From Colwellia sp. (GTDB lineage Bacteria > Pseudomonadota > Gammaproteobacteria > Enterobacterales > Alteromonadaceae), in assembly GCA_013215295.1 (NCBI GenBank), contig JABSOZ010000002.1, positions 372,001 through 436,000 of the forward strand: 64,000 nucleotides of DNA. Reading direction: 5' to 3'. This document shows, in pieces, positions 15,876 to 59,488 of the stretch. The notes below the pieces were generated by a model. It did no database searches. It saw only the letters and a program-made list of their open reading frames with translations, and was not told where the DNA came from. A program made the translations under genes and the position numbers. How positions within the stretch are numbered: position 1 is the stretch's first letter; every line of letters begins with the position of its first letter.

Positions 15876-15920
15876 AATAGCTCTCAATTTTATTATTTAT
15901 ATAAATAGGCTATCGTCACT

Positions 15921-15967
15921 CATCCCCATCCGTGGTGCCGTAACATACCGTTCATCCTGAACATAAA
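15921..15967. repeat. Copy 1 of terminator-linked dispersed repeat
   Basis: Contains ATACCGTTCATCCTGAACAT (15945-15964), preceded by a diverged CATCC..TGGTGCC segment. The inner GTTCATCCTGAAC is itself a small palindrome. It is related to repeats near 32.5, 34.9, 58.4 and 59.5 kb, and like them lies next to a terminator, here separated from it by about 20 nt. Confidence 0.75.
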
Positions 15968-32044: not shown

Positions 32045-32211
32045 TCAGATTGTTCTTTCTCCTTCCTATCATCATGTGTTTATTTTGGTGGAAATATTTA
32101 GACGCTAAAGGCTGTAGCGTAAAAGATGGGATAAAAGGCTTTGCTTATATTATTGCGTTTAATACGGTTTTGATTGGATTCTTTGTCGTTATGCTATTTG
32201 TGACTCATTGA
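32041..32211 (+). CDS. 56-residue membrane protein coupled to ampG
   Basis: Short gene whose ATG overlaps the ampG stop as ATGA (32041-32044), with GAGGAATTA just upstream. The product has two hydrophobic segments (LFFLLPIIMCLFWW and AYIIAFNTVLIGFFVVMLFV) joined by a short charged loop (KYLDAKGCSVKDGIKG). No known family is recognised. The overlap and composition suggest a real small subunit or modulator of AmpG, though a chance frame is possible. Confidence 0.6.
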   Translation: MIRLFFLLPIIMCLFWWKYLDAKGCSVKDGIKGFAYIIAFNTVLIGFFVVMLFVTH

Positions 32212-32230
32212 CATTTTAGCCTCAACTAGG

Positions 32231-32580
32231 TCATCCATGCTTCGCTCTGCATTCATGCAGTCATGAAAATGCGCCGCTCTTTGCTATCCATGGCACCACG
32301 ACATTGCCGACATGGATGTAGGTACTTATAATTTGTCTGGAACAAAAATGACGCACATGGATGTGCTAATGCCGTGAAGGCATGGATGCCTAATAACGGC
32401 CATGACCGTTGACGTGCATGGATGCACTAATGCCTTGAAAGACAGGATGTCTGAGAGAGGCCATCCTGAACATTCGCCGTTCCTTGCCATCCATGGCACC
32501 ACGTCATACCGTTCATCCTGAACATTCGCCGTTCCTTGCCATCCATGGCACCACGTCATACCGTTCATCCTGAACATAAA
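32231..32580. repeat. Intergenic palindromic repeat island (copy 2 of the family)
   Basis: A mosaic of short palindromes sharing the core CATGGATG or CAGGATG. Two tandem related units start at 32350 and 32411. Each has a hairpin GCACATGGATGTGC (32353-32366) or GTGCATGGATGCAC (32414-32427), then a two-tier hairpin of 30 nt (32371-32400 and 32432-32461). Next come two exact tandem copies of a 52-bp unit (32465-32516 and 32517-32568), then the core CCGTTCATCCTGAACATAAA and the DUF1232 terminator. A segment near 32282-32345 recurs near 34852-34917. It holds no credible gene; a frame of 83 codons on the minus strand is only translated repeat. Confidence 0.85.
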
Positions 32581-32582
32581 AA

Positions 32583-32610
32583 AAGCTTACTCAATAAAAT
32601 GAGTAAGCTT
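32583..32610 (-). terminator. Terminator of the DUF1232 gene
   Basis: AAGCTTACTCA (32583-32593) pairs with TGAGTAAGCTT (32600-32610). Read on the minus strand the stem is followed by a T-run, which is where the repeat island begins. Confidence 0.88.
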
Positions 32611-32638
32611 GTTAAACGATATTATTTAAATTAAGAAT

Positions 32639-33187
32639 TTAAAAAATAGAGCGGAATGATGAGCGACGACCACGACGAGTAGAACGACGGTTTCTCATAC
32701 GGCTATGAAGTTCACGACGTTTTGAGTCTAACCATTCTTCACGAGTAATTGTTGTATCACCAGTACGTTCTTCTTCACGACTACGGTAAGCACAAAACTC
32801 TTCAAAGGCCTCAATATCGTCTTTTAGTTCTTCTGCAACTAATTCAATCATAATTGCATCATCTAAAAAGCCTAATACCGGAATATGGTCAGGCACTAAA
32901 TCTTCAGGGTCACTGAAATAAGCTAAAGCACTTAATACATCTCTGCGTTCTTCAGCTGGAATTTTCCACTCTGAATCTTCAATCATCGCGATTAACGTTT
33001 CTAATTTTTTAATTCGATCACTGACGAACTCTGGAACACTGCCTTTTATATCTTGGCTAATGTTCTTAGCATTGGTTAAAATTTCAGTTTCGTTAAGTTC
33101 TGTAGCTCCTGATTGCGCTTTACGCATTACATCACGGAAGTGGTCTAAGTCTGATTCTGTTAGTTCAAATTTAACTTCAAACGCCAT
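32639..33187 (-). CDS. YkvA/DUF1232-family protein
   Basis: 182-residue protein with a DUF1232 core: SALAYFSDPEDLVPDHIPVLGFLDDAIMIELV. The family is widespread and usually membrane-associated through this short hydrophobic stretch; its biochemical role is unknown. The C-terminus is unusually basic (RRELHSRMRNRRSTRRGRRS), which could bind nucleic acid or acidic lipid. AGGAGAATTATA gives a strong ribosome binding site. Confidence 0.85.
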   Translation of the reverse strand: MAFEVKFELTESDLDHFRDVMRKAQSGATELNETEILTNAKNISQDIKGSVPEFVSDRIKKLETLIAMIEDSEWKIPAEERRDVLSALAYFSDPEDLVPDHIPVLGFLDDAIMIELVAEELKDDIEAFEEFCAYRSREEERTGDTTITREEWLDSKRRELHSRMRNRRSTRRGRRSSFRSIF

Positions 33188-34749: not shown

Positions 34750-34795
34750 ACTCATGGTAAAGCCTGACAATTCATCGACTTGGTTGGATTTACTA

Positions 34796-34942
34796 GTGCA
34801 TTACAAGACAGGATTTATGAGAGAGGCGATCCTGAACATTCGTCGTTCTTTGCCATCCATGGCATCACGACATTGCCTACATGGATGTAGGTACTTATGA
34901 TTTGTCTGGAACTAAAATCATGACCGTTCATCCTGAACATAA
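34796..34942. repeat. Copy 3 of terminator-linked repeat (partial island)
   Basis: Carries a degenerate GACAGGAT..GAGAGAGGC unit, then CCATCCATGGCATCACGACA, the palindrome CCTACATGGATGTAGG (34888-34903), TTTGTCTGGAAC, and the core GACCGTTCATCCTGAACATA directly before the lysS terminator. Segments of it match the island near 32.3 kb with scattered changes. Confidence 0.85.
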
Positions 34943-58360: not shown

Positions 58361-58380
58361 TCATTTTATCCTGAACATAA
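58361..58380. repeat. Copy 4 of terminator-linked repeat (short)
   Basis: TCATTTTATCCTGAACATAA carries the diverged core of the dispersed repeat. It again directly adjoins a terminator stem in the same orientation as the other copies. Confidence 0.65.
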
Positions 58381-59433: not shown

Positions 59434-59488
59434 ATTTACGTTCATTGGCATCCATGCCACCACGTTATACCGTTCATCCTGAACATAA
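59434..59488. repeat. Copy 5 of terminator-linked repeat
   Basis: TTTACGTTCATTGGCATCCA, then CACCACGTTATACCGTTCAT and CCTGAACATAAA, closely following the 52-bp unit of the 32.5-kb island with several changes. It runs straight into the thyA terminator. Confidence 0.85.

Follow-up and report, generated by a model that had tools for sequence, protein, structure and literature searches.

Nested double hairpins of about 50 nt, apparently mobile and with loops predicted to bind CsrA, in Colwellia and its relatives

The window, that is the whole stretch of 64,000 nucleotides that was analysed, was placed on contig C12 of a Colwellia genome of 5.77 Mb (labelled G000). Behind its DUF1232 gene lies a terminator-like stem-loop and, next to it, an array of short repeat units, further copies of which occur elsewhere in the window. 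The recurring units were read from the matches in G000 as A (51 nt), B (51 nt) and C (49 nt), and the profile searches agreed. The features are given below in the order of the array, followed by those outside it.

32272..32304, minus strand: host unit A, 3' part (two-tier hairpin), 29.6 bits
32305..32349, plus strand: host unit C, first 45 nt, 62.8 bits
32350..32400, plus strand: unit B1, 51 nt, 75.2 bits, inserted in host unit C; leader GAC, hairpin GCAC[ATGGAT]GTGC, linker TAAT and two-tier hairpin
32401..32404, plus strand: host unit C, last 4 nt (CATG), beyond B1
32405..32410, minus strand: host unit A, middle 6 nt (AACGGT)
32411..32461, plus strand: unit B2, 51 nt, 74.2 bits, inserted in hairpin 1 of host unit A
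32462..32473, minus strand: host unit A, 5' part (ATGTTCAGGATG)
32475..32525, minus strand: intact unit A, 76.4 bits
32527..32577, minus strand: intact unit A, 76.4 bits, abutting the terminator T-tract on the minus strand
32578..32613, minus strand: terminator-like stem-loop (AAGCTTACTCA/TGAGTAAGCTT) with T-tract, behind the DUF1232 gene
32639-33187, minus strand: DUF1232 gene
34777..34827, plus strand: B-like match, weak and decayed, 24.8 bits
34841..34873, minus strand: unit A, 3' part, split by unit C, 46.8 bits for 34841-34892
34874..34922, plus strand: intact unit C, 80.3 bits, including CCTACATGGATGTAGG at 34876-34891
34923..34940, minus strand: 5' part (ATGTTCAGGATGAACGGT) of the unit A begun at 34841..34873
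15914..15964, minus strand: single unit A, 68.8 bits; left flank T-rich, without strong terminator hairpin
59436..59486, minus strand: single unit A after a terminator-like hairpin and T-tract, 74.8 bits

Joining of the interrupted pieces restored complete units. The three pieces of host A gave 51 nt, 47 of which are identical to the intact A at 32527-32577, and host C without B1 gave 49 nt, identical at 46 positions to the intact C at 34874-34922. Two inserts, B2 and C, interrupt host A, and B1 in turn interrupts C. The first hairpin of B1 is GCACATGGATGTGC, and in the second the outer stem GCCGT/ACGGC encloses the inner GGCA/TGCC; the first hairpin of B2 is GTGCATGGATGCAC, GTGC[ATGGAT]GCAC, and the second has outer GCCT/AGGC round AGACA/TGTCT with the pentaloop AGGAT. 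The sequences and pairings of both units at 32350-32461 are as described in an earlier note on this DNA, and the repeat is real and present in many copies. The 61-nt tandem of that note, on the other hand, resolved into two 51-nt insertions with no tandem duplication. B1 and B2 sit in different hosts, so that they represent two insertions and the intervening 10 nt (32401-32410) are host sequence, composed of the C end CATG and six bases of host A (ACCGTT). The palindrome CCTACATGGATGTAGG, which had been put at 34888, was found at 34876-34891. An ORF at 32326-32577 on the minus strand gave no Pfam match and was taken as a chance ORF. Judged from its sequence, the array is made up of nested mobile double-hairpin elements of about 50 nt that belong to Colwellia and relatives.

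The plan of the units is common to A, B and C and consists of a short leader (GAC, (G)AT or TG), a simple hairpin, a linker of 4-5 nt and a two-tier hairpin. The two-tier part has identical geometry in A and in B (5-2-5-4-5-4-5), and the A profile also finds B copies at nearly full length; the models R1 and R2 cross-match as well, each finding units of the other. The GGA-to-GGA distance is 26 nt in A and 25 nt in B and C. A kink-turn reading of the 2x4 internal loop was dropped because its G.A pattern is not kept (GG, GA and GT occur).

At least 69 matches to the 411-bp array region were present in G000, where 40 of 76 candidates were scored. All match counts are lower bounds, with 40 to 150 candidates scored per genome. 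B matches numbered at least 70 in G000 and at least 58 in G005. The distribution was patchy: B matches (E 0.1) were obtained in 21 of 59 genomes and A matches (E 0.001) also in 21 of 59, and within the genus all 6 of 6 genomes carried B matches, 27-70 each as lower bounds. The exact search of public genomes with the B-unit core returned 21 stretches, all from Colwellia or Cognaticolwellia, with C. hornerae among the carriers of B units, and the phage, plasmid, viral-contig and E. coli sequence collections gave no match. De-duplication left 393 units (B 165, A 154, C 74). Full matches amounted to 118 for B, 50 for A and 48 for C, and 104, 49 and 41 respectively passed the length filter. The loop and pair counts given below were made on unique sequences of full-length ungapped units (B 84, A 39, C 39), in which well-preserved copies are over-represented, since interrupted and truncated units were left out and the loci were picked by matches to the sequence or the models.

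Other modules were observed along with the three main units. Modules D (5 copies) and E (4 copies) are rare and nested too (L106, L149, L160, L090, L104, L209); their loops are mostly of the A(N)GGAX type on other stems, with AGGT in one E and CTGGAT in one D as exceptions. By eye, a possible decayed D lies at about 32227-32262 of the window. The variant A2 was found by model A as four tandem 49-nt A-like units behind the terminator of a gyrA-like gene (L246, 1499-1694). Its stems are quite different from those of A, the second stems entirely so, its loops are AGGAC and AGGA on C-G pairs, and its CsrB match is at chance level (12.5 bits, E 0.7). At contig ends of G000 (L015, L025, L038; L012, L021) arrays were seen by eye to run into two shared end sequences, which are apparently insertion-sequence ends inside units, with the contigs breaking there. 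The repeats seem to act as IS targets and assembly breakers.

The mobility of the units is well supported, as far as sequence comparison can tell, by clean in-gene insertions and by filled and empty orthologous sites. In G037 two B units were found inside an IS91-type transposase gene. The joined flanks read QQLHGTSITYRIAL at the first junction, where the frame is open, and FEPLDFIAKLAAL at the second; this clean rejoining indicates that both inserts are 51 nt long and left no target duplication that could be seen. The flanking parts, searched apart, matched Zn_Tnp_IS91 and Y2_Tnp, and the last codon of the Y2_Tnp match is the one that precedes the second B insert. The lysS site carries a bare terminator in G001, one A in G002, three tandem A in G004 and composite arrays in G000 and G005, and its context is different in G003. 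In G001 and G004 this site was also seen to have collected copies of another palindromic repeat (cctgaacttgtttcaggatctcgtc; L145, L146). B units were also seen by eye within 5S rRNA-like sequence in the relatives' loci L087, L092 and L183. The insertions follow a hierarchy, B and C going into A, and B into C. The B junctions showed Y on the left in 101 of 102 cases and C on the right in 97 of 102; a rule that B inserts after ATG was replaced by Y^C once more sites were counted.

The well-supported mobility and the defined junctions, Y on the left and C on the right for B and T for first-copy A, count in favour of another explanation, in which the units are mobile DNA and nothing else. Single-stranded DNA hairpins, loop included, would then be recognised by an enzyme of transposition or recombination acting in trans. 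Such an enzyme would need the folded stem, which would produce covariation, GGA would be its recognition triplet, and the likeness of the loops to CsrA sites would be coincidental. This explanation is regarded as a serious one, though rather less than probable.

The placement of A units was analysed from their flanks. T occupied the last preceding position in 40 of 49 full A copies with flanks, nearly always as part of a T-tract, and the other 9 follow another A unit. A T-tract precedes 67 of the 102 A units with an intact 5' end, and in 59 of these 67 a hairpin is rightly placed, against 9.6% with shuffled upstream sequence; the other 35 mostly follow another A, and a few, by eye, follow neither A nor a T-tract. 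On these counts the first A copies sit mostly just after predicted terminator-like hairpins, in one orientation. Among units with a known upstream ORF, 129 of 137 A, 88 of 127 B and 40 of 60 C were downstream of a co-directional ORF, and 39 of 127 B and 20 of 60 C were antisense to it, the gene directions being taken from longest-ORF calls and 69 of the 393 units being without a usable upstream ORF. The 144 clusters were convergent in 56 cases, tandem in 37, divergent in 5 and unknown in 46. At 58367-58378 of the window TATCCTGAACAT adjoins another terminator-like hairpin and is probably the last trace of an A unit.

The pairing of the stems was analysed on sequence-based alignments with specified structures (B 32 sequences, 30 distinct; A 28; C 20). 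The covariation check on these family alignments gave double changes above 500 of 500 shuffles in every unit type: cells changed on both sides of a pair numbered 36 in B against a shuffled mean of 13.7, 47 in A against 13.8 and 21 in C against 4.4, and none of the 500 shuffles reached these numbers, although these are non-independent tests as the copies share descent. Of two weaker measures, the number of pairs with a double change was matched by 0 (B), 2 (A) and 0 (C) of 500 shuffles, and the number of further pair types by 15, 47 and 0. The covariation score was 0.314 for B, 0.348 for A and 0.251 for C, compared to 0.008-0.103 when the pairings were slid by 1-3 columns. In the larger set of unique full-length units, the Watson-Crick cells were 564/585 in A, 498/585 in C and 1139/1260 in B, the last figure carrying a slight bias towards pairing because the better of two inner registers was chosen for each B sequence; in the lower stems 90-97% of cells were Watson-Crick. 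Whole stems were exchanged in A, where the inner stem is TGCCA/TGGCA in 23 of 39 and TCACA/TGTGA in 11 of 39, and the outer stem is GTCGT/ACGAC in 11 of 39, GTCAC/GTGAC in 10 and GTCAT/ATGAC in 5. The selection for structure suggested in the earlier note is supported by the covariation in three unit types and by this larger set from relatives.

The same note had offered a copying mechanism that rewrites whole hairpins. In its pure form this means that template switching in quasi-palindromes at replication keeps the arms matched and that structure is not selected. In A the double changes, with 47 cells altered on both sides, exceed the intermediates (5 cells with a standard change on one side and 17 unpaired), which is in accordance with it, and so is the A...X pair of the second hairpins, which is Watson-Crick and nearly always A-T in 38 of 39 A and 81 of 84 B. 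In the first hairpins, however, the palindromy ends at the C-G closing pair, and A...X departs from Watson-Crick pairing in 28 of 84 B units, in 9 of 39 C and in 5 of 39 A, whereas the lower stems are at 90-97%; the kept GGA and first A are also left unexplained by correction alone. The argument from a loose X fails for the second hairpins, in which X is nearly always T. Copying as the sole cause is not favoured in view of the first hairpins, although the second ones speak for it, and as a complete account it is considered improbable.

The loops are more constant than the stems that carry them. Of the 6 hairpin types, 5 have C[A(N)GGAX]G at the apex; the sixth, the second hairpin of C, has CTGGA in 29 of 39 and not A(N)GGA. 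The first loop base is A in 39/39 (A hairpin 1), 39/39 (A hairpin 2), 83/84 (B hairpin 1), 49/49 (B1 hairpin 2), 34/35 (B2 hairpin 2) and 39/39 (C hairpin 1). In the same order, GGA is kept in 39/39, 39/39, 81/84, 46/49, 35/35 and 36/39, and the C-G closing pair in 37/39, 38/39, 75/84, 42/49, 33/35 and 32/39. The base N is absent in A hairpin 1 and B2 hairpin 2, varied in B hairpin 1 (T48 A18 G10 C5) and C hairpin 1, and mostly T in A hairpin 2 and B1 hairpin 2. The base X is varied in the first hairpins (B T55 A22 C3 G1; C T28 C7 A1; A T34 A3 C1 G1) and nearly always T in the second ones (38/39 in A, 46/46 in B1, 33/35 in B2). What had been taken for a constant GGAT is better read as a CsrA loop A(N)GGAX.

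According to the available text of PMC4005645, all four stem-loops of RsmZ are A(N)GGAX above a C-G pair with N dispensable, and an ANGGAX hexaloop set directly on the stem is the high-affinity form. The accessible part of PMC7652899 gives the CsrA SELEX consensus as RUACARGGAUGU, with loops mostly of six nt, and states that CsrA bridges two sites 10-63 nt apart. The loop pattern fits the RsmE/RsmZ and CsrA rule as published in these portions of PMC4005645 and PMC7652899. The loops are accordingly listed here as predicted binding sites of CsrA/RsmA, with two of them in each A and B unit, and by analogy with the bridged distances available from PMC7652899 the GGA spacing of 25-26 nt in A and B would be within reach of one CsrA dimer. 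The optional N, the fixed first A and the kept C-G closing pair make up the CsrA rule and thereby tell against recognition of the hairpins as DNA only. The exact SELEX consensus is absent from the window; among the 267 loci fetched, 4 contain it, with five occurrences in total, each within a B match.

The genome has one match to csrA, at G000:C12:437960-438115, about 2 kb right of the window end, and 53 of 58 aligned residues of its product are identical to PDB 1y00 (E. coli). Rfam gave no match at gathering level in the window, and by E-value the stretch 32200-32640 gave three weak matches, including RsmY at 11.5 bits and E 1.9, which is chance level. A dedicated CsrB gene in G000 was rejected, as the best match, at 20.8 bits (E 0.002), fell short of the cut-off of 71 and the site was unconvincing on reading; sub-cut-off matches were obtained in most control genomes too.

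The choice between RNA and single-stranded DNA, both of which had been proposed, was approached through the mismatches. If the RNA of the GGA strand is selected, G.U is expected to be tolerated more than A.C. The lower-stem cells on the GGA strand showed G.U to A.C ratios of 7:1 in A, 29:6 in B1, 12:4 in B2 and 1:2 in C, 49:13 in total, and 19 vs 10 when counted as distinct position/type events. Over all pairs the ratios were 8:2 in A, 49:18 in B and 8:22 in C. The lower-stem excess leans towards RNA, though a strand bias in C-to-T change could mimic it, and this preference for G.U on one strand is a second point against units that act purely as DNA. The RNA side of the proposal gains from the lower stems of the GGA strand, but over all C pairs the relation goes the other way.

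Other observations favour DNA or speak against a simple role as RNA. The loop is the same in A, B and C, which face opposite strands and occur at sites where transcription is unlikely, and recognition of a DNA hairpin predicts much of what the CsrA model predicts. In the arrays of G000 that were inspected, A carries its GGA on the other strand from B and C, so that no single transcript displays all sites, and A lies beyond the terminator, so that it would be transcribed by read-through only. The plus-strand RNA of the window array folds better than shuffles (z -4.11), B2 pairing long-range with the inverted A copies and its loops being buried in this fold, and the minus-strand RNA shows no such advantage over shuffles (z -0.97). 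Owing to the opposite strands, the buried B2 loops and the unremarkable minus-strand fold, CsrA-binding modules are given an even chance of being the right explanation, and hairpins acting as DNA keep the serious though lesser standing stated above.

An enzyme that could move the units was considered among known families. REP/BIME sequences, which RAYT (Y1) transposases move, are likewise many short intergenic palindromes in mosaics; the units are dispersed, mostly intergenic, palindromic and in mosaics, and Y1_Tnp was matched in 35 of 59 genomes. Among the 21 genomes in which B was matched, 15 had a Y1_Tnp match, as had 20 of the 38 others. The six B-bearing genomes without a Y1_Tnp match are G000, G005, G009, G010, G012 and G018, and in the whole genome of G000 the search returned 0 matches. 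The units are also double hairpins of 49-51 nt with leaders GAC, (G)AT and TG, unlike the GTAG-tagged palindromes of 20-40 nt. RAYT mobilisation was rejected on these grounds as very unlikely. For mobile DNA of any other kind the same Y1_Tnp search, empty in 6 of 21 B-bearing genomes, is unfavourable, since it found no enzyme. The single reverse transcriptase match in G000 was a partial RVT_1 match (L222). A MITE is not indicated either: the junctions examined showed no target duplication, and the ends are separate hairpins with no terminal inverted pair.

Group IIC introns insert after terminator hairpins in the sense direction and are large ribozymes with a reverse transcriptase, unlike units of 49-51 nt. 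Fungal mitochondrial double-hairpin elements, which are found in organelles and thought to be mobile, resemble the units in having two adjacent hairpins in a mobile unit, and to our knowledge they have no enzyme, no fixed GGA loop and no terminator placement. Mitochondrial hairpin elements have conserved stems and variable loops in the available portion of PMC2800124, which is the reverse of the units here, where loops are kept and stems are variable. For CGTC-tagged REPs the transposase is given as not known in the part of PMC3733652 that was available; the minus strand of B also ends in CGTC, but the C of the tag is paired in B, and A and C are without the tag.

The CsrA decoys CsrB/CsrC and RsmX/Y/Z are also hairpin series with A(N)GGA loops and several sites per RNA. 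The units share with them the A(N)GGAX apical loops on C-G (5 of 6 types) and stems kept paired, but give no match to curated CsrB/RsmY/RsmZ and do not have all sites on one strand. CsrB/CsrC and RsmX/Y/Z are dedicated genes, whereas the units are dispersed, inserted, nested and on both strands. The E. coli RNAs RrA/RrB/RrF are CsrA-binding RNA made by terminator read-through, with modest in vivo effects, as given in the available text of PMC8144298. They are placed just after a terminator as the units are, and their product arises by read-through, but in that text they belong to three rRNA operons only and are not described as mobile (PMC8144298). The literature search, covering titles and abstract openings with little subscription literature, gave no description of these elements.

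The reading with an even chance, judged on the loops, stems and placement, is that the units are CsrA-binding mobile RNA modules. RNA polymerase would pass the terminator in the case of A, or arrive from a convergent gene in the case of B and C, and the resulting RNA would contain paired CsrA sites. A CsrA dimer would bridge both loops of one unit, and the unit-bearing RNA would hold or titrate CsrA in the manner of RsmZ/CsrB or the E. coli Rr RNAs. It is proposed that the stem is needed just to hold the loop open, so that the stem would be free to turn over and its arms would change in pairs. The units may in this way serve as scattered CsrA decoys. A further step, possible but doubtful, would be a SINE-like self-spreading element whose cargo is two CsrA-binding hairpins and which seeds terminators genome-wide with decoys. 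If so, the set-point of a global regulator would evolve by copy number, as terminators are seeded with CsrA decoys, and the turnover of stems under a fixed protein-binding loop would be its visible trace.

If the loops bind CsrA, a mobile repeat would deliver to dozens of gene ends the signal that a global RNA regulator recognises, and no such means of rewiring or buffering Csr control was found in the literature searched. Otherwise, an enzyme would still be needed to account for a covarying 51-nt double hairpin that is mobile in a genome where Y1_Tnp has no match. In either case the rewritten hairpins would provide a direct test of selection on RNA versus DNA.
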